From contig NZ_ML974138.1 of assembly GCF_004143485.2 (NCBI RefSeq), positions 1 to 64,000 of the forward strand: a stretch of 64,000 nucleotides of DNA. Direction: 5' to 3'. The translations under genes and the position numbers were made by a program. Below the pieces are notes generated by a model. That model worked only from the letters and a program-made list of their open reading frames with translations. It searched no databases and was not told the origin of the DNA. This stretch comes from Halorussus amylolyticus. Its GTDB lineage: Archaea; Halobacteriota; Halobacteria; Halobacteriales; Haladaptataceae. This document shows positions 11,259 to 29,035 of this stretch, one piece after another. Position 1 is the stretch's first letter, and each line of letters begins with the position of its first letter.

Positions 11259-11347
11259 GACGGCGCTACGAACTCGCGGGTCTTAAAAGTCGAGCGACTC
11301 GGACGCTCCGATTCGAATCAGACAGCGCTCGGCCGACCAAATTGGGT

Positions 11348-11555
11348 GGAATGAAAGGGGCCGCCCGGTCGCGCGTGCCTTGGTCGTCTGACCGGCCCCT
11401 ATCCGCGCCGGTGCGATGCAGTGCGGTAGGCGCGGATATGTCGGTCAGCGACCGTTTCGTGAGTGAAACGAACGAAACCTCGAAAGTCGCAGCCGAGGAG
11501 CGAAGCGACGAGGACCGTCTTTCGGTGGCGACCGGGCGGGGGCTTTCTGGCTGTT
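11348..11555. repeat. Structured dispersed element, copy 1 (about 208 nt)
   Basis: Starts GGAATGAAAGGGGCCGCC and ends GGGGGCTTTCTGGCTGTT, the same ends as the copies at 20587 and 28702. The terminal segments pair (CCGCCCGGTCGC with GCGACCGGGCGG). A central stem pairs CTGACCG (11388) with CGGTCAG (11442), and TATCCGCGCC (11400) with GGCGCGGATA (11429). The 3' part carries further small hairpins that differ from those of copies 2 and 3. Strand is undetermined. It could be a structured RNA or a MITE-like element. Confidence 0.8.
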
Positions 11556-20540: not shown

Positions 20541-20586
20541 TTCGCGAGTGTTTCGTAGCGAACGGCGACACAGGCCACCGACGGCG

Positions 20587-20772
20587 GGAATGAAAGGGGC
20601 CGTCCGGTCGCGGCCGAAGGCCGTGGTCGCTTGCGCAGGCAACTATTCGCGCCGCGCGGTGTGGAAGGCGCGAATATCCTGCGCAACGACCGCGACCACC
20701 GGAAGACAAACCGCGTCTTCCGAGGTCACGCTCGCTCCGCTTGCGTGACCGGGCGGGGGCTTTCTGGCTGTT
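20587..20772. repeat. Structured dispersed element, copy 2 (about 186 nt)
   Basis: Same conserved ends as copies 1 and 3. The terminal stem pairs CCGTCCGGTC with GACCGGGCGG, where one C-to-T change keeps pairing as a G-U wobble. The central stem uses different bases from copies 1 and 3 yet still pairs (GCGCAGG at 20633 with CCTGCGC at 20678; TATTCGCGCC with GGCGCGAATA). A 52-bp two-hairpin module (20699-20750) follows the central stem; the same module is inverted in copy 3. It lies between the GST-like gene and the thioredoxin-like gene. Confidence 0.8.
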
Positions 20773-20901
20773 AATAGCCCGTCGTGTTCTGCGGTTCGTT
20801 CCACTTCCACGGTCGCGTCGCCTGTTCGATTGCAATCCAGATTACCTGACGCCACCTCCACCACCCGAATCTATTTTTCCGACGCCGAACAACTCCCAGT
20901 C

Positions 20902-21459
20902 ATGGTAATGAAAGAGTCCGAGGCCGAACTGGAGCGCGGCGACCCGGTGCCGAACTTCGAACTGCGGGGCACCGACGGCGAGACTCACACCCTCGCGGAC
21001 TTCGCCGACTACGACGCCCTCTTGCTCGTGTTTACGTGCAATCACTGCCCGTACGCGCAGGCGAAGTTCGACCTGCTGAACGACATCGCCGCGGAGTACG
21101 ACGACGCCTCAGTCGTCGGCATCAACCCCAACGACGCCGAGGAGTACCCCGACGACTCCTTCGAGAAGATGGTCGAGTACGTCGAGGACGGGACGATTCG
21201 GTACGACGCCTACCTCCGCGACGAGACCCAAGAGGCCGCCGAGGCCTACGGCGCGGTCTGTACGCCTGACCCGTTCCTGCTTCGCAACGAGGGCGACACC
21301 TTCACGCTGGCGTACCACGGCCGCCTCGACGACGCGATGAACCCCGACGACGAGGCGACCGAGTTCTACATCCGCGAGGCCATCGACTCGGTGCTGGCGG
21401 GCGAGGACGTGGACTTGGAGTTCATGCCCTCGCGCGGGTGTTCCATCAAGTGGAAGTGA
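20902..21459 (+). CDS. Thioredoxin-fold (AhpC/TSA-related) redox protein
   Basis: A 185-residue thioredoxin-superfamily protein. The pattern NFELRGTDGETHTLADF, then LLVFTCNHCPYAQAKFDLLNDIAAEY, is that of the peroxiredoxin-like 'thioredoxin family protein' group in which the active motif is TCNHCPYA with two cysteines spaced CxxC. A conserved second region GAVCTPDPFLL contains the cis-Pro-like loop. The TATA box TCTATTTTT (20869-20877) is about 27 nt ahead of the ATG, so the message is probably leaderless. The likely role is a thiol oxidoreductase or peroxidase in the cytoplasm; it sits next to another thiol enzyme. Confidence 0.85.
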   Translation: MVMKESEAELERGDPVPNFELRGTDGETHTLADFADYDALLLVFTCNHCPYAQAKFDLLNDIAAEYDDASVVGINPNDAEEYPDDSFEKMVEYVEDGTIRYDAYLRDETQEAAEAYGAVCTPDPFLLRNEGDTFTLAYHGRLDDAMNPDDEATEFYIREAIDSVLAGEDVDLEFMPSRGCSIKWK

Positions 21460-21556
21460 TCGAGGTGGAAGCGAGCGCGGCCGCCTTCATCGAAGCGTTC
21501 GGACACGACCCCGGATGAACAGAAGACTTTTTTCGGAACGGGACACACCGACACCT

Positions 21557-22159
21557 ATGGCAGAGCCCTCCCCGTTCGACCCGGAGTCGAGCAAGTACAA
21601 CATCTCCACGGTCGAACTCGACGACGACAGCTACGAGGTCAAACAGTCGGCGATTCGGAACAAGTACGCCGTCCGCGACAGCAACGGCGACGTGGTCCTG
21701 CGCGGGAAACAGAAGCTCTTCAAGATGAAAGAGGAGTTCCCGTTCGTCACCGGCGACGACCGAGAGGCGTTCACGGTGAAAGCTGGCGGTATCTTGGACG
21801 TGGCGGGGAACTACACCATCACGGACGCGGGCACCGGCGAGGAAATCGTCGTCCTCGACGAGGACTTCTCGCTGTTCGTCGAGAACTGGACGATTCGAGA
21901 CCCCGACACGGGAGACGCCCTGGCGACTATTCACTCGAAGGGCAAAGTCCTCTCTGCGCTCCGACATCTCGTGAGTATCGCGAACATCTTCCCGAACAAG
22001 TACGAGATACTCGACGCGGACGGCAACCACGTCGGCGACATCGACGGACAGTTCTCGCTTCGAGACACCTACACCGTCAGCATCGACGACGCGAGCAACG
22101 TCCCGAAGGAAGCGGTGGTCGCCGCCGCGTGCATCCTCGACGCCCTCGAAAATCAGTAA
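21557..22159 (+). CDS. LURP-one-related (LOR/scramblase-like) family protein
   Basis: A 200-residue protein with the twelve-strand tubby-like beta-barrel pattern of the LOR family (YEVKQSAIRNKYAVRDSNGDVVLRGKQKLFKMKEEFPFV, later NIFPNKYEILDADGNHVGDIDGQFSLRDTYTVSID) and a final hydrophobic helix (EAVVAAACILDAL). The second ATG (21557) was chosen because the TTTTTT element at 21528-21533 is about 26 nt upstream of it. The biochemical role of archaeal LOR proteins is unknown. Haloarchaea commonly carry several. Confidence 0.85.
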   Translation: MAEPSPFDPESSKYNISTVELDDDSYEVKQSAIRNKYAVRDSNGDVVLRGKQKLFKMKEEFPFVTGDDREAFTVKAGGILDVAGNYTITDAGTGEEIVVLDEDFSLFVENWTIRDPDTGDALATIHSKGKVLSALRHLVSIANIFPNKYEILDADGNHVGDIDGQFSLRDTYTVSIDDASNVPKEAVVAAACILDALENQ

Positions 22160-22228
22160 GCCGAAGGCCGCTCCCGGAGATCGGTCATTCGGTCGCCGTT
22201 TACGCCTTCGTTTTCGATATCGTAAACG

Positions 22229-23434
22229 CTAGCTCGACCCGGAAAGTGAAACCTCCCCGGAATAGGCGGTCAGCGAGTCGGCGTACCCCATCAGCGTGGT
22301 TCCGAGGATGCTCATCAGCAGGACGTAGCCCACCGCGAACGCCGGAATCGTCGTTCCCAAGGCTCCCGTGCCGACGCTGGTGGCGAGCGCCGCGATGACC
22401 AGCGAGAACTCCCCGCGCGGGACGAGACCCACGCCGACCCGGAGCGAGCGCCGACGATTCAGACCGTAGAGAAATCCCCCGGCGGTCCCGCTGGCGAGTT
22501 TGGTCAGCGTGGTCGCCACGACTGCGACCGCGAGCAGGGCCGCGACCCCTGCGATGACCGTCACGTCGGTCGTGAGACCGATGGAGAAGAAGAAGACGGC
22601 GGCGAACAGGTCCCGCGCGGGAGCGACCACGGTCTCGATGCGGTGGGTGTGGCCGGTCGTACTGAATGCGGTGCCGACGAAGAACGCCGCGACCGCCTCG
22701 CTCACGCCGAGCGCGAGCGCCCCGCCCGCGACCAGCGTCGTGACGCCGAGGACCCGGAGCAAGAACAGTTCGTCCGAATCGACCGTGAAGGCGCGCTCGA
22801 CGTACTCGGTGCCGTACCACGCGAGCAGGGTGAGACCGCCGAGGAACGCGAACGCGATGCCGACCGAGATTGCGGCCTCGTCGAGTCCGCCGCCGCCGAG
22901 CGCGACGGCCGAGAGGACCGCGAGATACACCGCGATGAGGATGTCTTCGAAAACGAGCGTGCCGAGAATCGCCTCGCTCTCGGGGTTGGCAATCCACCCG
23001 CGGTCGATGAGCGACTTGGTGATGACCGCGCTGGAGGAGATGTAGACGATGCCCGCGACGAACAGCGTCTCGATGAGCGTGAACCCGAACGCGAACCCGA
23101 TTGCGATGCCGACGCCGAAGTTCAGCACGAAGTCCACGGTGCCGATGCCGACGAGCTTGTTCCAGCCCTCCACGAGGCGCTCGATGTTGAACTCCAGTCC
23201 GAGGAAGAACAGGAGGAAGACGACGCCGAGTTCCGCCAGCACGTCGATGAACTCGTGGTTCTCGACCAGCGTGAGCGGAATCGGCCCGAGCGCGGTAGGG
23301 ACGTTCGGTCCGACGAGGATGCCCGCGACGATGTACATCGGGATGACCGACTGATTCACGCGGACCGCGAGCGCACCGCCGATTGCGAGCGCTGTGAGCG
23401 CGATGCCGACTTCGATGAGGATTTCTCCGGCCAT
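22229..23434 (-). CDS. CPA2-type K+/H+ (Na+/H+) antiporter membrane subunit
   Basis: A 401-residue cation:proton antiporter of the CPA2/KefB group with about 12 membrane helices. Recognisable segments are YIVAGILVGPNVPTALGPI, ELGVVFLLFFLGLEFN, TLVFEDILIAVYLA (a conserved acidic FED in the transport helix), and the gene's later half GLVPRGEFSLVIA. It lacks the C-terminal TrkA-N domain of KefB/C; instead its regulator is encoded by the gene directly upstream with no gap between them. The pair resembles bacterial KhtU/KhtT, which export K+ in exchange for H+. This fits ion control in a salt-in halophile. Confidence 0.9.
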   Translation of the reverse strand: MAGEILIEVGIALTALAIGGALAVRVNQSVIPMYIVAGILVGPNVPTALGPIPLTLVENHEFIDVLAELGVVFLLFFLGLEFNIERLVEGWNKLVGIGTVDFVLNFGVGIAIGFAFGFTLIETLFVAGIVYISSSAVITKSLIDRGWIANPESEAILGTLVFEDILIAVYLAVLSAVALGGGGLDEAAISVGIAFAFLGGLTLLAWYGTEYVERAFTVDSDELFLLRVLGVTTLVAGGALALGVSEAVAAFFVGTAFSTTGHTHRIETVVAPARDLFAAVFFFSIGLTTDVTVIAGVAALLAVAVVATTLTKLASGTAGGFLYGLNRRRSLRVGVGLVPRGEFSLVIAALATSVGTGALGTTIPAFAVGYVLLMSILGTTLMGYADSLTAYSGEVSLSGSS

Positions 23435-23914
23435 CTACGCGGCGAGTAGGTCGTCCAGGGCCTGTTGTTCGTCGCGGGTCCCGAGGGTGACGAGGATGTC
23501 GCCCGCCCGGAGTTCGAACTCCGAGCCGGGATTGGCGACCGTCTCGTCGTCGCGCTGAACCGCGATGACAGAGGTACCCGTCCGCTGGCGGATTTCGGCG
23601 TCCCGGAGGCTCTCGCCTTCGAGCGACGAGCCAGCGGGAAGGTCGGTCCACTCGATGATGGACTCGCCGAGCGGCACGTCCACGCTGTCCAAATCGACTG
23701 GCTGGAAGTACGCGCCCTCCAGAATCGTGCCGAACTCGCGGGCCTGCTTGTCGTTGAGTTCGAACAGTTTCGTGCCGTCGGCGTCCTCGGAGGGTCGCCG
23801 GAACACCTCGCGCTTGCCGTCGTGGTGGATGAGCACGACGAGGCGGTCCTCGCCGTCGAGTTCGTACTCGAACTTCCGGCCGACGCCCGGCACGTCGGTT
23901 TCGTAGACTGTCAT
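23435..23914 (-). CDS. KhtT-like TrkA-C (RCK-C) regulatory subunit of the antiporter
   Basis: A 159-residue cytoplasmic protein. The N-terminal ~75 residues form the KhtT/AmhM N-domain (YETDVPGVGRKFEYELDGEDRLVVLIHHDGKREVF). The C-terminal ~80 residues are an RCK_C domain (LRDAEIRQRTGTSVIAVQRDDETVANPGSEFELRAGDILVTLGT), which binds a ligand such as cyclic di-AMP, a nucleotide or NAD to gate the transporter. The stop abuts the antiporter start without spacing. The co-transcribed pair is an established arrangement for the family. Confidence 0.9.
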   Translation of the reverse strand: MTVYETDVPGVGRKFEYELDGEDRLVVLIHHDGKREVFRRPSEDADGTKLFELNDKQAREFGTILEGAYFQPVDLDSVDVPLGESIIEWTDLPAGSSLEGESLRDAEIRQRTGTSVIAVQRDDETVANPGSEFELRAGDILVTLGTRDEQQALDDLLAA

Positions 23915-24028
23915 GGATGTGAAGAGGGCGAATAGGGTCTTAAACGTGGGGTGAGGCGAATCGGGGGCTGGAAGAATGAGGCTGCGATTGGTATCTCCGG
24001 TTCGCAGCAGCGAGAAACCACACCGGGG

Positions 24029-24502
24029 TTACTCTCCACGGTCGCCGTACGTTCCCTCACCCCAATCATACTCGGACGGTTCGTCGTTCCGTTCGAGGTA
24101 GTCTTCCAGCACCTCCTGCACCGTCCGGCCGAGGTCGTCTAACGAACCGTCAATCATCGAAACCGTGCTCGAATCGAGCGATTCGGTCGAATCTCGCTCC
24201 CGCCAGTCGTCCGGAATCGTCGGGGCGTCGAAGCGAAGCCTATCTTCGGTCGGGTCCCAGTAGAAGTCGAACGCCTGGAACAGGCCGAGGTCGCTGACGA
24301 TTCGGACCTGCTCTTCGTCGAGATTCGTGTACTCGGCCCACTCGTTGAACCCCTCTTTCCACGCACCCTCCTCTAGCAGGTCTTCGATATCCTCGCGGTA
24401 GAAATCCTCCGACCCGAGCGTCTCTTCTTGCCACTCGAACTCGCGCGGCATCCCTCGGTTCGAGAGGTCTGGTGATTCCGGTACCGCTACATCGAGCGTC
24501 AT
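24029..24502 (-). CDS. Acidic hypothetical protein, 157 residues
   Basis: A soluble, very acidic protein with many Trp, Tyr and Phe residues (EFEWQEETL, FNEWAEYTNL, AFDFYWDPTEDRLRF, SEYDWGEGTYGDRGE). No catalytic or metal motif and no signal is visible. The codon use is typical of the genome but the flanks become AT-rich on both sides. The ATG at 24502 precedes a well-placed start and there is a TATA-like TTTATTGTG about 25 nt upstream on this strand. The family is not recognised. Confidence 0.65.
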   Translation of the reverse strand: MTLDVAVPESPDLSNRGMPREFEWQEETLGSEDFYREDIEDLLEEGAWKEGFNEWAEYTNLDEEQVRIVSDLGLFQAFDFYWDPTEDRLRFDAPTIPDDWRERDSTESLDSSTVSMIDGSLDDLGRTVQEVLEDYLERNDEPSEYDWGEGTYGDRGE

Positions 24503-24621
24503 ACCAATAGTGCCACTGGGAACACAATAAAGCCTCAGACCAGTCCTCGACGAGGGAGATACTCTCTCAAAAGAACATCCCGTTTCTGAATAACGAATCT
24601 GTATTGCTGACTCCTGATAAT

Positions 24622-24693
24622 GAGAAGCGAAAGCGGACGCAGAACGAGAATAGAAAGCAGACGCAAAACGAGAAACAAAAGCAGACGCAAAAC
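24622..24693. repeat. Three 24-bp tandem repeats
   Basis: Three abutting units of exactly 24 bp start with GAGAA and end GACGCAGAAC or GACGCAAAAC (24622-24645, 24646-24669, 24670-24693). The last two differ at few positions. They are purine-rich (G/A) on the plus strand and lie in an AT-rich gap without a gene. Confidence 0.9.
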
Positions 24694-24721
24694 TGTGGAG
24701 CCAGCTAGCTACTCCCGGTAC

Positions 24722-24973
24722 CTATGAGGACCGCACCGCAACCGCGACGGCCACACACCTCCCCAACCGACTGCGGTCCTCGGTTAGTCGCTCCCTTCGG
24801 TCGCTCCTTCCTGCGGTCCTCATCCCTCGCGCGACTTGGGCGCGGCATAAAGCCGCGCCAGCACGCGCCGGGTGGACTGATTCGCCGTAGCTTTCCCCGA
24901 AAGTCCAGCCGAGACGTGGCTCTTGGATTTCGGGACAACGCTTTCCCCGAGGGCCGCCGAAGCCGAATCCGAC
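24722..24973. other. Non-coding stretch with haloarchaeal repeated sequence
   Basis: The DNA holds direct and inverted copies of a GCGGTCCTC word (24723, 24774, 24813) and a hairpin around GCGCGGCATAAAGCCGCGCC (24840-24860). From memory, very similar stretches recur in haloarchaeal genomes and are often mistranslated as small proteins. I see no gene here. The gap as a whole (24503-24973) also contains the AT-rich tandem repeat. Confidence 0.5.
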
Positions 24974-26266
24974 GTGCCAGCACTCGAAGACTCGCTCGAA
25001 ATCGGCGGTCTGATGGTTCCGAACCGGCTCTACCGCGCGCCGCTCCTCGAATGCGCGGGCAACGGCCCGGACGCGGTCGAAACCCTGATTCGGGAACTCG
25101 AACCCGCCGCGGCGGCCGGGGCCGGACTCGTCTGTCAGGGCGCGACCATCGTTCGCGAGGAGGGCGGATGCGCCGCGCCGGGGATGACGAGCGTGGCCGA
25201 CCCCGAGTTCGTCGCCCGACTGTCTCGACTCACCGACGCGATTCACGACCACGGCGCGAAAATTTTCGTCCAACTCGAACACGGCGGTCTCCGGAGCATG
25301 GAGACGTGGCACGCCGAGTACCGCGAGGAGCATCCCGATTTGGGCCAGCTCGCGGTGTCCCGACCGCCGGGACTCCTGCGCGCGCTCGACCGACTCGGAT
25401 TCCTGAGCTACGACGCCTGCGTCCTCTCGACCGACGAGGTGTACGACCTCGCCGCCGACTTCGGCCGCTCGGCGAAGTACGCCGCCGACGCGGGCTACGA
25501 CGGCGTCCACATCGCCGGAGCGAACATGGGCATCGTCCAGCAGTTCCTCTCGCCGTTCTACAACCGCCGGGACGACGAGTTCGGCGACGGGGTGCGATTT
25601 CTCGAACTCGTCCACGACGAGATTCGAGCGCGAGCGGGCGACGTGCCCCTAATGGCGAAGGTGCCCGCCGAGACCGAAGCGCCGCCGTTCGTTCGGCAGA
25701 GACTCGGGACCGAGGACGCCGTGGAAATCTGCGCTCGCCTCGACGAAATCGGGTACGACGCAGTTGTGCCCGTGACGGCGTCGGTCTTCTGGGACATGAG
25801 CATCGTCCGCGGGGAGTTTCCGGAGGCCGCGTGGCGCGACGACCGCTTTCGCGCGGGCTACGCCGCGGCGTTCGGAAGCAGGTGGCGGGCCGGACTCGTC
25901 GCAGCGCTCAATCGACTCGAGGCGTTCGAGTACGGCTTCGAACCGGCGTGGAACCGCGACCTCGCGCGTCGAGTCCGCGAGCGCGTGTCGATTCCGGTGC
26001 TGCTCGAAGGCGGGGTTCGGACCCGCGAGCAAATCGACGGACTGCTCGGAAGCGATTGCGACGCGGTCGGCATGGGGCGGCCGTTCTACGCCGAACCTCG
26101 GCTTCCGGCCCGGATTCTCGGCGCGGACGACGCCGAAGTTGTTTGCGAGAACTGCAACAACTGCACCGTACCGCAGGTCACGGGCGCGCGCGGCGTCTGC
26201 CGGACGCCCGAAGTGCTGGCCGAGAAGGGCGAACTGGAGCGCGAGGGAGCGTACGAACGGGAGTAG
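24974..26266 (+). CDS. Old-yellow-enzyme-type NAD(P)H:flavin oxidoreductase
   Basis: A ~430-residue FMN-dependent TIM barrel of the OYE family. Visible segments: GLMVPNRLYRAPLLEC (start of the barrel), KIFVQLEHGGL, YDGVHIAGANMGIVQQFLSPFYNRRDDEFG, PLMAKVP and IPVLLEGGVRTREQIDGLLGSDCDAVGMGRPF (phosphate-binding site). After the barrel it ends with CENCNNCTVPQVTGARGVC, a cysteine cluster similar to the 4Fe-4S site of 2,4-dienoyl-CoA reductase-type members, but the second reductase domain is absent. There is no ATG before the domain; the GTG at 24974 is the best start, a TTG at 24923 is possible. The substrate is an unknown activated alkene or ketone. Confidence 0.85.
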   Translation: MPALEDSLEIGGLMVPNRLYRAPLLECAGNGPDAVETLIRELEPAAAAGAGLVCQGATIVREEGGCAAPGMTSVADPEFVARLSRLTDAIHDHGAKIFVQLEHGGLRSMETWHAEYREEHPDLGQLAVSRPPGLLRALDRLGFLSYDACVLSTDEVYDLAADFGRSAKYAADAGYDGVHIAGANMGIVQQFLSPFYNRRDDEFGDGVRFLELVHDEIRARAGDVPLMAKVPAETEAPPFVRQRLGTEDAVEICARLDEIGYDAVVPVTASVFWDMSIVRGEFPEAAWRDDRFRAGYAAAFGSRWRAGLVAALNRLEAFEYGFEPAWNRDLARRVRERVSIPVLLEGGVRTREQIDGLLGSDCDAVGMGRPFYAEPRLPARILGADDAEVVCENCNNCTVPQVTGARGVCRTPEVLAEKGELEREGAYERE

Positions 26267-26300
26267 CCAGCGTTACGTGCCGACCGGCCCAATCGCCGAC

Positions 26301-26540
26301 ATGGCCCGCGAAGTCACGCACGAAGCGACTGGCCCGGTGCGACTGGACGAGGACGACTTGGACGAGGAGTACGGCGACATCGCGGTCTGTCTGTGCGGCC
26401 TCTCCGAGGAGTACCCGTTCTGCGACGGCTCGCACCGAGCAACAGAGGACGAGGACGACGGGGCGGTCTACAAGTACGAGGACGACGATGCAAGCCGCGA
26501 ACGCCGCGAAATCGAGGACATCGTCTTCGCCGACGAGTAG
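26301..26540 (+). CDS. CDGSH-type iron-sulfur protein
   Basis: A 79-residue protein whose core CLCGLSEEYPFCDGSHRAT provides the three Cys and one His of a 2Fe-2S CDGSH (mitoNEET-type) cluster. The N-terminal part MAREVTHEATGPVRLDEDDL resembles the usual 'divergent CDGSH with iron-sulfur carrier' proteins of haloarchaea. The ATG at 26301 gives a start with normal acidic composition. It lies 34 nt after the OYE-type gene, which also seems to carry an FeS cluster, so the two may be co-transcribed and act in electron or cluster transfer; the link is by proximity only. Confidence 0.9.
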   Translation: MAREVTHEATGPVRLDEDDLDEEYGDIAVCLCGLSEEYPFCDGSHRATEDEDDGAVYKYEDDDASRERREIEDIVFADE

Positions 26541-26557
26541 AATTTACGACGGCCAGG

Positions 26558-27796
26558 CTACTCCGTGAGCGCCCGGAGTCGCTCGGGAAGGTCGTCCAAA
26601 TCGACCGTCTCCGGGTCGGTCCCTGCATCGCCGAGTTCGCGGAATCCGGTCCCGGTCAGGACCGCGACCGCCTCGTCGTCCGCCGCGAGGTCGCCCGATT
26701 CGGTGAGTTTGCGGATTCCGGCCAGCGAGGTCGCCGACGCGGGTTCGACGCAGAAGCCAGCGCCCTCGGCCAGTCGGGCCTTCGCGTCCAGAATCTCGTC
26801 GTCCGTCACCGAGAGAACCGCGCCGCCGGTCTCACGGGCCGCCGCGAGCGCGCGCGTGCCGCTCGGCGGGTCCGAGTTTGCGATGGAGTAGGCGACCGTT
26901 TCGTCCGCAGTGGTCGCAGTTACTTCGTCGGCCCCTTCGCGGTAGGCCTGCGCGATGGGGTCGCAGGCCGCGGCCTGTACGAAGTAGAGTCGCGGGAGCG
27001 AATCGGCGCCGAGCAGGCCCGCGGCTTCGAGTTCGCGAAGCGCCTTCCACGACGCGCTGGCGTGGCCGCCGCTACTGGTCGGGACGACGATGGCATCGGG
27101 CGCGGCGCGGTCGGCGACCGCGCCGCGCCGGGCGAACGCCTCGCAGATTTCGAGCGCGGTGGTCTTCTGGCCCGCGACTCGAAGCGGCGTGTCGGAGTTG
27201 ACGAACTCGACGGGCGAGTCCGTTTCGAGCGTGTCGTAGTAGAGTCGGCCGTAGTCGCCCGCGATTCGAAGGACCTCGGGACCGTACTGCGCGATGGCAG
27301 TGAGTCGCTCGGTCGAGATGTCGTCGGGCACGAGGACGACGCACTCGGCGTCGGTTCCGGCGGCGTGGGCCGACACGCTGATTGCCATGTTACCGTGCGA
27401 GACGGTGCCGACCCACTCTCGGCCCGCCGCAGCGGCCCACGCTACGCCCACCGCGCTCCCCCTATCCTTGAAGCTCCCAGTGGGGTTCTCGCTCTCGTCT
27501 TTGAGCCAGAGGCGACACCCGGCGTAGTCGTCGAGTCCGTTCGCTCGGACGAGCGGGGTGTCGCCCGCGGCAGACCCGACGCCCTCGCGATGTTCGACCG
27601 GCAGGAGGTCGGCGTAGCGCCACGGGCCGGAGGTGCGGCCCGGCCCGTCGCCTTCCCGACCGACACTTTCGGGCCACCCGAAGTCTTCAGATTCGGTGTC
27701 GAACCAGAGCGGTTCGCCGCAGTCGCATCGCTTGCTGTCAGGGAATGTGGCGGTCGCGCCGCACCGATAGCAGGTCAGACCGAGAGTGTCAGTCAT
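26558..27796 (-). CDS. Threonine synthase-like PLP enzyme
   Basis: A 412-residue fold-type II PLP enzyme. It begins with a zinc-ribbon-like part CYRCGATATFPDSKRCDCG typical of archaeal threonine synthase, then GDTPLVRANGL, KDESENPTGSFKDRG with the Schiff-base lysine, TVSHGNMAISVSAHA and PTSSGGHASASWKALRELE. Threonine synthase converts O-phosphohomoserine to threonine, but paralogs with other dehydratase roles are common, so the substrate is open. Its ATG overlaps the stop of the upstream aldolase gene by 4 bp; the two form one unit. A 31-bp inverted repeat (27099-27129) lies inside the coding region. Confidence 0.85.
   Translation of the reverse strand: MTDTLGLTCYRCGATATFPDSKRCDCGEPLWFDTESEDFGWPESVGREGDGPGRTSGPWRYADLLPVEHREGVGSAAGDTPLVRANGLDDYAGCRLWLKDESENPTGSFKDRGSAVGVAWAAAAGREWVGTVSHGNMAISVSAHAAGTDAECVVLVPDDISTERLTAIAQYGPEVLRIAGDYGRLYYDTLETDSPVEFVNSDTPLRVAGQKTTALEICEAFARRGAVADRAAPDAIVVPTSSGGHASASWKALRELEAAGLLGADSLPRLYFVQAAACDPIAQAYREGADEVTATTADETVAYSIANSDPPSGTRALAAARETGGAVLSVTDDEILDAKARLAEGAGFCVEPASATSLAGIRKLTESGDLAADDEAVAVLTGTGFRELGDAGTDPETVDLDDLPERLRALTE
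27099..27129. repeat. Inverted repeat with 14-bp arms inside the PLP enzyme gene
   Basis: Arms GGCGCGGCGCGGTC and GACCGCGCCGCGCC with a GGC spacer. The frame of the threonine synthase-like gene runs through it. Confidence 0.85.
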
Positions 27797-28554
27797 CGCA
27801 TCGCGTCCTCGTACGTGGTGTGGGCGCGCTCGGCCCCTTCGGCGAGGTAGCCAGCGTCCACGCCGACGACCTGATAGTCGTAGCCGTAGTCGGCCCAGAG
27901 CCGAATCTCGTCGGTGTTGGTCGCCAGCGTGCCGACCGGCGTGTCGCTCGCGTGGGCCGCGTCGATAACGTCGGCCACCGCGTCGGCGAACGTCTCGGAC
28001 TCGTACTCGCCGAAGGCGTCGAGCGACCCCGAGAGGTCGGCCGGGCCGACGAGCAGGGCGTCGATACCCTCGACAGCGGCGATATCGGCGGCGTTCCCGA
28101 CCGCGCGCTCGGTCTCGATTTGGACGATGGTCGCGAGGTCGTCGCCCGCGGATTCGACGGCCGAGTCGAGTTCTCGGCCGTAGTCGTTCGCGCGCGACCC
28201 GGCGATGCCCCGGATTCCCTCCGGCGGGTAGCGGACGGCCTCGACCGCCTCGCGCGCCTCGTCGGCCGTCTGGACCATCGGGACGAGGACACCGGAAACG
28301 CCGGTGTCGAGCACGCGCTTGATTCGGACCGGGTCGTTCCACGCCACGCGGGCGATTGGCTCGGCGTCCCCGGCGGATTCGACGGCGCGCGCCGCGTTCG
28401 CGACCGATTCGGTGTCGGTCGTCGCGTGCTCGGTGTCCACGACGACGAAGTCGGCGTCCCGGCCGCAGAGTTCCGCCACGGTCGGGTCACCGATGGAGAG
28501 CCACTGGCCGACGACCGGTTCGCCGCTTCGGAGTTCGCGCTTGAAGTCCGTCAT
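27793..28554 (-). CDS. HpcH/HpaI-family aldolase
   Basis: A 253-residue class II aldolase of the 2-keto-3-deoxy-sugar-acid type. Motifs match the family: FVVVDTEHATTD (Asp/Glu/His metal site), NDPVRIKRVLDTGVSGVLVPMVQTADEAREAVEAVRYPPEGIRG, IVQIETERAVGNAADIAAVEGIDALLVGPADLSGSL. It catalyses reversible cleavage of 2-oxo-3-deoxy acids to pyruvate and an aldehyde. The ATG at 28554 is preferred; the longer frame upstream is Arg/Ala-rich and unlike the family. It is translationally coupled to the PLP enzyme, so the pair may serve one pathway, which I cannot name. Confidence 0.9.
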   Translation of the reverse strand: MTDFKRELRSGEPVVGQWLSIGDPTVAELCGRDADFVVVDTEHATTDTESVANAARAVESAGDAEPIARVAWNDPVRIKRVLDTGVSGVLVPMVQTADEAREAVEAVRYPPEGIRGIAGSRANDYGRELDSAVESAGDDLATIVQIETERAVGNAADIAAVEGIDALLVGPADLSGSLDAFGEYESETFADAVADVIDAAHASDTPVGTLATNTDEIRLWADYGYDYQVVGVDAGYLAEGAERAHTTYEDAMR

Positions 28555-28600
28555 GGCAGAACCCTCGGGCGCACCCGGCAAGTAGGTTTCCGACGCGGCA

Positions 28601-28631
28601 GGCGAGCGCGGCGCGGTGCGCCGCGCTCGCC
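28601..28631. repeat. Intergenic inverted repeat with perfect 14-bp arms
   Basis: Arms GGCGAGCGCGGCGC and GCGCCGCGCTCGCC with a GGT spacer, 47 nt upstream of the aldolase start. Not shared in sequence with the other palindromes. Confidence 0.85.
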
Positions 28632-28701
28632 GCAACGGGGCGCTGGAATCGACTGGTGAGACAGTCCACCGGGAATCGGCCGGTGAATCGACCGAAGGGA
28701 G

Positions 28702-28882
28702 GGAATGAAAGGGGCCGCCCGGTCGCGTTTACTGTAGTCGTCTCACCGACCCCTATTCGGCGCGGGCGGTGGTCACGCGAGCGGAGCGAGGGTGACCTCG
28801 GAAGACGCGGTTTGTCTTCCGGCGCGGAGAGCGCCGAATATGTCGGTGAGCGACCGCGACCGGGCGGGGGCTTTCTGGCTGT
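28702..28882. repeat. Structured dispersed element, copy 3 (about 181 nt)
   Basis: Ends as in copies 1 and 2 (GGAATGAAAGGGGCCGCC and GGGGGCTTTCTGGCTGTC). The terminal stem is CCGCCCGGTCGCG with CGCGACCGGGCGG; the central stem CTCACCGA with TCGGTGAG and TATTCGGCGC with GCGCCGAATA. The apical loop holds the 52-bp module (28771-28822) that in copy 2 lies 3' of the central stem, here in reverse orientation (50 of 52 bases identical). A partial extra copy of the tail (TTTTCTGGCTGTCGG) occurs at 28925-28939. The stretch 28883-29035 holds nothing else I can name. Confidence 0.8.
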
Positions 28883-29035
28883 CGTTGGTTCTATAATTTC
28901 CGCGATTCAGAGAGCACACCGGAGTTTTCTGGCTGTCGGGATGCTACAAGTCGTTGTCCGGGCCCGAGTGAGCAGACGAACGGTTCCGAATCGAGGTCAA
29001 CGCACGTACGGGGAAAACGATTCCAAAAACGACCC

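Follow-up and report, generated by a model that had tools for sequence, protein, structure and literature searches.

Several small mobile repeats have been described that do not encode a transposase of their own. In Haloquadratum walsbyi, Dyall-Smith and colleagues found many copies of transposase-free short mobile repeats (SMR-A and SMR-B), which cause no target duplication, are inserted within palindromes of other mobile repeats, and move in a manner that was called enigmatic (PMC3119063). SMRs measure 80 or about 110 bp, bear terminal inverted repeats at their ends, and are commonly >95 % alike (PMC3119063). Among fungi, the double-hairpin elements of Allomyces mitochondria form a dispersed unit of two adjacent short hairpins without flanking duplications that also occurs in genes (Paquin et al. 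2000, as quoted in PMC2800124). Rickettsia palindromic elements of about 150 bp lie in-frame within protein-coding genes and are frequent there (PMC10969869), and REPINs are small hairpin repeats that insert within each other or side by side and are accompanied by a resident Y1-type RAYT gene (PMC3116915; the small dispersed repeats, SDR, of cyanobacteria are named there as well).

The window analysed here, that is, the whole stretch of 64,000 nucleotides from Halorussus amylolyticus, contains three copies of a hairpin-forming scaffold. Two of them carry a 53-bp double-hairpin module, and the features are as follows (coordinates in the window):

11344..11547, + strand: scaffold copy 1 (R1 match 11344-11479, E 1.4e-10; 3' motif at 11538)
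11453..11526, - strand: diverged, longer two-hairpin relative of the module, near the 3' end of copy 1 (module model E 1.6e-6)
20583..20764, + strand: scaffold copy 2, an imperfect-hairpin repeat (GGCGGGAATGAAAGGGGC ... GGGGGCTTTC) with the module near its 3' end (R1 match 20583-20713, E 4e-14)
20698..20750, + strand: 53-bp double-hairpin module of copy 2, hairpin 1 followed by hairpin 2, 3' of the central stem between GCGACC and GGGCGG (R2 E 9e-17)
20700..20722, + strand: hairpin 1 of the copy 2 module, with an 8-bp stem of CGGAAGAC and GTCTTCCG and the loop AAACCGC
20724..20750, + strand: hairpin 2 of the copy 2 module, with a stem of the GGTCACGC and GCGTGACC class and an 11-nt loop
28698..28875, + strand: scaffold copy 3, its apical loop holding the module (R1 match 28698-28881, E 1e-23)
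28771..28823, - strand: 53-bp double-hairpin module of copy 3, between CGGGCGGT and GCGGAGAG (R2 E 2.5e-16)

The scaffold is itself an abundant repeat. With at most one mismatch, 90 matches to its 5' motif GAATGAAAGGGGC are present in the 3.78-Mb genome and 0 to a reversed control pattern; its 3' motif (at most two mismatches) has 52. An alignment of 57 copies folds into a single long imperfect hairpin of 39 pairs, 21 of which show changes on both sides, with a covariation score of 0.308 as compared to 0.101 in shuffled and at most 0.057 in slid alignments; most of these scaffolds carry no module. By alignment, a GGG/GGG mismatch (GGGxGGG) near both ends is kept in nearly all copies. Matches to the scaffold model were found in at least 88 of 145 sampled haloarchaeal genomes (40 of 58 genera), the named records including Halorussus, Haladaptatus, Haloarcula, Halobacterium, and Halobacteriales MAGs. 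No scaffold was found in phage records. On 145 kb of an annotated H. salilacus plasmid, all five strong matches (5/5) are intergenic. The scaffold 5' pattern is also matched by JAKONI010000318.1, labelled as a Beijerinckiaceae MAG, which is likely a misbinned contig.

The original prediction described a 52-bp module lying in opposite orientations and positions in two scaffold copies. The positions and the match are as described (50 of 52 positions identical between 20699-20750 on the + strand and 28771-28822 on the - strand), but comparison of the junctions with empty scaffolds sets the unit at 53 bp, one base longer, over which 50/53 positions agree. In a whole-genome BLAST search this match has an E value of about 1e-17, and the module model recovers both copies at E below 1e-15 (299 kb searched); as a control, the same model gave zero matches at E<=1 in 90 kb from two G+C-rich, non-haloarchaeal phage genomes. 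Copy 1, which had been thought to lack the module, in fact contains the diverged relative at 11453-11526. Nineteen module copies align without gaps over all 53 positions and reveal 8-bp stems in both hairpins, closed by a loop of 7 nt in hairpin 1 and of 11 nt in hairpin 2; the loops are fixed, the stems covary, and the length is usually exactly 53 bp. The stems are 94 % paired, and the covariation score amounts to 0.424, as compared to 0.147 for shuffled and no more than 0.087 for slid alignments; since hairpin 1 pairing was a criterion for part of this 19-copy set, the pairing of hairpin 1 is biased, and that of hairpin 2, which shows both-sided changes in 6/8 pairs, is free of this bias. 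As a whole, the module lacks a terminal inverted repeat, its ends being the outer arms of two different hairpins, whereas the scaffold does have one. At 53 bp it is too short to encode a transposase.

That the hairpins move apart from the scaffold had been proposed, along with a search for the module with and without the scaffold in the genome and its relatives and a comparison of junctions; this search found the module at varied sites with clean borders, which supports the proposal. In this genome's scaffolds (a slash marks the border), the module occupies an apical junction (CGGGCGGT/GCGGAGAG), three places in the 5' arm (CGGTCGC/GCTCGTC, CCGGAC/GCTCGCGG, and CGCTCGC/GGGCCGC), and one in the 3' flank (GCGACC/GGGCGG), and every border fits an empty scaffold. 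Other genomes of the genus add GCGACC/GCGAGCGGG and, at the outer scaffold edge, GGGT/GGACTGAAAG, and across several scaffold sites the module is found in both orientations. It furthermore lies within at least two other repeat families (junctions CTCATCC/CTCGCGCG and GCGCGC/GCCGGGG, plus a third family), and every 53-bp module checked in this genome (29/29) sits within another repeat. Neither a consistent target duplication (at scaffold, other-repeat, and gene junctions read) nor a shared 4-5 nt target was seen at module junctions. The repeats at loci C7:40917, C6:210965, C4:129662, and C3:360830 of this genome belong to a second dispersed family (GCTAGCTACTCCCGGTACC..CCTCCCCAACCGACTGCG..GCGCGC), in which the module occupies at least two sites. 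At C6:228623, 228742, and 228861, hairpin 1 lies inside a 119-bp unit that forms three tandem repeats.

Two insertions lie within protein genes. In another genome (G015), a methyltransferase gene, whose product shows Pfam methyltransferase domains, contains a 54-bp module insert that adds 18 amino acids in frame and is missing in 5/5 orthologues compared; a short duplication at this site is indistinguishable from chance. Likewise, an S9 peptidase gene of H. salilacus carries a 48-bp insert (16 amino acids, in frame) that is missing in 5/5 homologues compared; for these insertions, polarity is based on insert-free orthologues from different species. Such in-frame gene insertions resemble the Rickettsia palindromic elements in these two cases, but the module's inserts measure only 48-54 bp, are haloarchaeal, and most module copies are intergenic and within other repeats.

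The original prediction also held that a mobile hairpin nested in a structured element would be unusual. However, Haloquadratum is already known to harbor small repeats that lack a transposase, insert into the palindromes of other repeats, and leave no target duplication (PMC3119063). The module resembles the SMRs in being haloarchaeal, too short for a transposase, free of target duplication, and nested in other mobile repeats, but differs in its length of 53 bp, its tandem hairpin pair without terminal inverted repeats, its lower identity (a median of 40/53), its covarying stems, and its occurrence in genes. Because the terminal inverted repeats and the high identity are lacking, it is not filed as an SMR, yet it works like one, SMRs being compared here by description alone. 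At the module itself, neither the transposon-like terminal inverted repeats nor the target duplication of a MITE are seen. Cyanobacterial SDRs are very small structured repeats that were reported nested in other sequences, in another phylum than the module. Searches of the literature on haloarchaeal REP repeats and small dispersed repeats returned no direct description, and among the papers listed by a sequence-string search none was relevant.

The module is numerous and widespread. Its model has at least 85 matches in this genome, at least 20-152 per genome across 18 same-genus genomes, and matches in at least 125 of 145 sampled haloarchaeal genomes, that is, class-wide, although the weaker ones may be chance look-alikes; since scoring covered a part of the candidates, these counts are minimum values. 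The median pairwise identity is 40/53. As for the close match of copies 2 and 3, which had been taken as a sign of recent exchange, the module of copy 3 is identical to one at C2:614875 on another contig, that of copy 2 has its best matches in three copies at 50/53, and 20 of 406 pairs agree at 50/53 or better. Given the identical copy and these equally or better matching pairs, the 50/52 match provides no evidence for direct exchange between copies 2 and 3.

The scaffold sites themselves differ between species. At the site of copy 3, only the closest same-genus genome among those compared (G012) has a scaffold, with different stems and no module, and the other same-genus genomes compared have a short spacer or another repeat. 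In G012, this intergenic site looks as if one repeat had replaced another. At the site of copy 2, no scaffold was seen in eight aligned genomes (in two of which the mid-part of the long spacer is incompletely covered). Given this presence and absence at both sites, the scaffold turns over between species. On a scaffold-core tree, the five apical copies that hold a module require 4 changes, of which supported branches force at least 3, and the scaffolds nearest to copy 2 (C7:31647 and an identical C16 copy) are empty; with few columns, many open forks, and shuffled labels requiring about as many changes, the tree shows scatter of the filled copies but no direction, and it fits precise losses as well as gains. 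The neighbouring genes, which encode a glutathione S-transferase domain and an AhpC/TSA-family protein for copy 2 and an HpcH/HpaI aldolase-family protein and DUF7521 for copy 3, contain nothing pointing to a mover.

A discrete unit of near-fixed length with covarying stems and clean borders at many sites, in unrelated repeats and in protein genes, is thus what was observed. It is probably a non-autonomous mobile repeat, a hairpin pair that enters new sites in one piece and in either direction, mostly within other palindromic repeats, with scaffold copies 2 and 3 having been filled separately at different positions. Separate insertions are favored because filled scaffolds are scattered and the sites differ, neither of which is explained by inversion. 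Since there is no target duplication, and given the hairpins and their low share of G-U pairs, we infer that the module may be copied through a folded single-stranded DNA form; a trans-acting enzyme would then join it into new sites without target duplication. Scaffold loops might gather modules because a small palindrome is nearly harmless there or because such DNA extrudes hairpins. Because all 29 modules checked lie in other repeats, recombination among the repeats and a bias toward nesting may also contribute to the spread. More tentatively, these copies could belong to a class-wide haloarchaeal family of 53-bp double hairpins that inserts via DNA hairpins with no need for Y1 and no target duplication, nests in palindromes, and adds peptides in frame.

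A resident Y1 (HUH) transposase that moves the hairpins via single-stranded DNA, as in REPINs or IS200/IS605-like elements, is a rather unlikely alternative. Hairpins, nesting, and the missing target duplication would fit single-strand transposition, and Y1 genes are present in 10 of 18 same-genus genomes. However, no match to the Y1 family (PF01797; IS200/RAYT) was found in this 99.88 % complete genome, so that the likeness to REPINs and their RAYTs ends with the hairpins and nesting, and none in seven other genomes with 20-119 module matches; furthermore, the junctions lack a common 4-5 nt target, while a past or distant HUH enzyme would still be compatible. Ectopic gene conversion or recombination between repeats could instead shuffle the module and would make an insertion process of its own unnecessary. 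Host repeats are indeed numerous, copy 3 and C2:614983 have the same module at the same site in similar scaffolds, and same-site copies may have spread by this route, but gene conversion requires two-sided homology, and flanking sequence is not shared between the various scaffold sites, the other families, and both genes, which makes conversion an unlikely source of the insertions at large.

An RNA intermediate, a hairpin RNA that is reverse-transcribed as has been suggested for the double-hairpin elements of fungi, draws on the lack of target duplication, the same argument as that made for Allomyces in the text quoted in PMC2800124. By description, those elements and the module both consist of two adjacent, dispersed hairpins without flanking duplication, but theirs are fungal and mitochondrial, and the module's hosts are mostly other palindromic repeats. 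G-U makes up 0.3 % of the pairs in the module and 1.5 % in the scaffold versus 7.6 % in 11 tRNA genes (studied loci; a small yardstick, and a G+C-rich genome by itself depresses G-U), which speaks against RNA constraint and leaves this route with little likelihood. The nearly pure Watson-Crick pairing rather suggests selection or arm-against-arm copying acting on DNA. It is quite improbable, too, that scaffold and module together form a selected functional RNA or regulatory element: strong covariation, class-wide presence, and the invariant GGGxGGG mismatch near the scaffold ends are in its favor, but the G-U share is low, the copy number high, presence varies between species at the same intergenic site, and Rfam holds no family for either (no match at the gathering score; at a permissive E value, sub-threshold matches only, outside the element). 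An invariant module within the scaffold, simply inverted to give copy 3, is the counter-reading that the original prediction itself had named, and it can practically be dismissed: both copies lie within the scaffold and apical copies share site and orientation, but most scaffolds lack the module, it also occurs at several scaffold sites, in other repeats, and in genes, an in-place inversion would leave it in the 3' flank and not bring it into the apical loop, and the clean insertions into protein genes rule simple inversion out.

For the smallest mobile repeats the moving machinery is often obscure, as the authors of the Haloquadratum study said of theirs. The mobile module family offers clean and comparable junctions, a covariance model, host genomes free of Y1, and two in-frame gene insertions, whereby the movement of a 53-bp hairpin pair becomes testable in culturable archaea. 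It also supplies archaeal proteins with new peptide segments and accounts for part of the unannotated intergenic repeats in haloarchaeal genomes.

Three further observations concern the scaffold. Identical scaffold pairs across contigs (C7/C16 and C5:259211/C10:8920) point to duplicated segments or a redundant assembly. At C1:376360, C1:516260, C2:439638, and C10:19927, the scaffold ends enclose a different core, and these copies form a separate, well-supported tree branch. The scaffold 3' end (GGGGGCTTTC plus about 11-14 nt) recurs downstream 1-3 times at a spacing of about 54-57 bp, sometimes as an exact tandem, for example, at 28871-28940 in the window and at C1:685661, C2:472733, and C2:362892 elsewhere in this genome.
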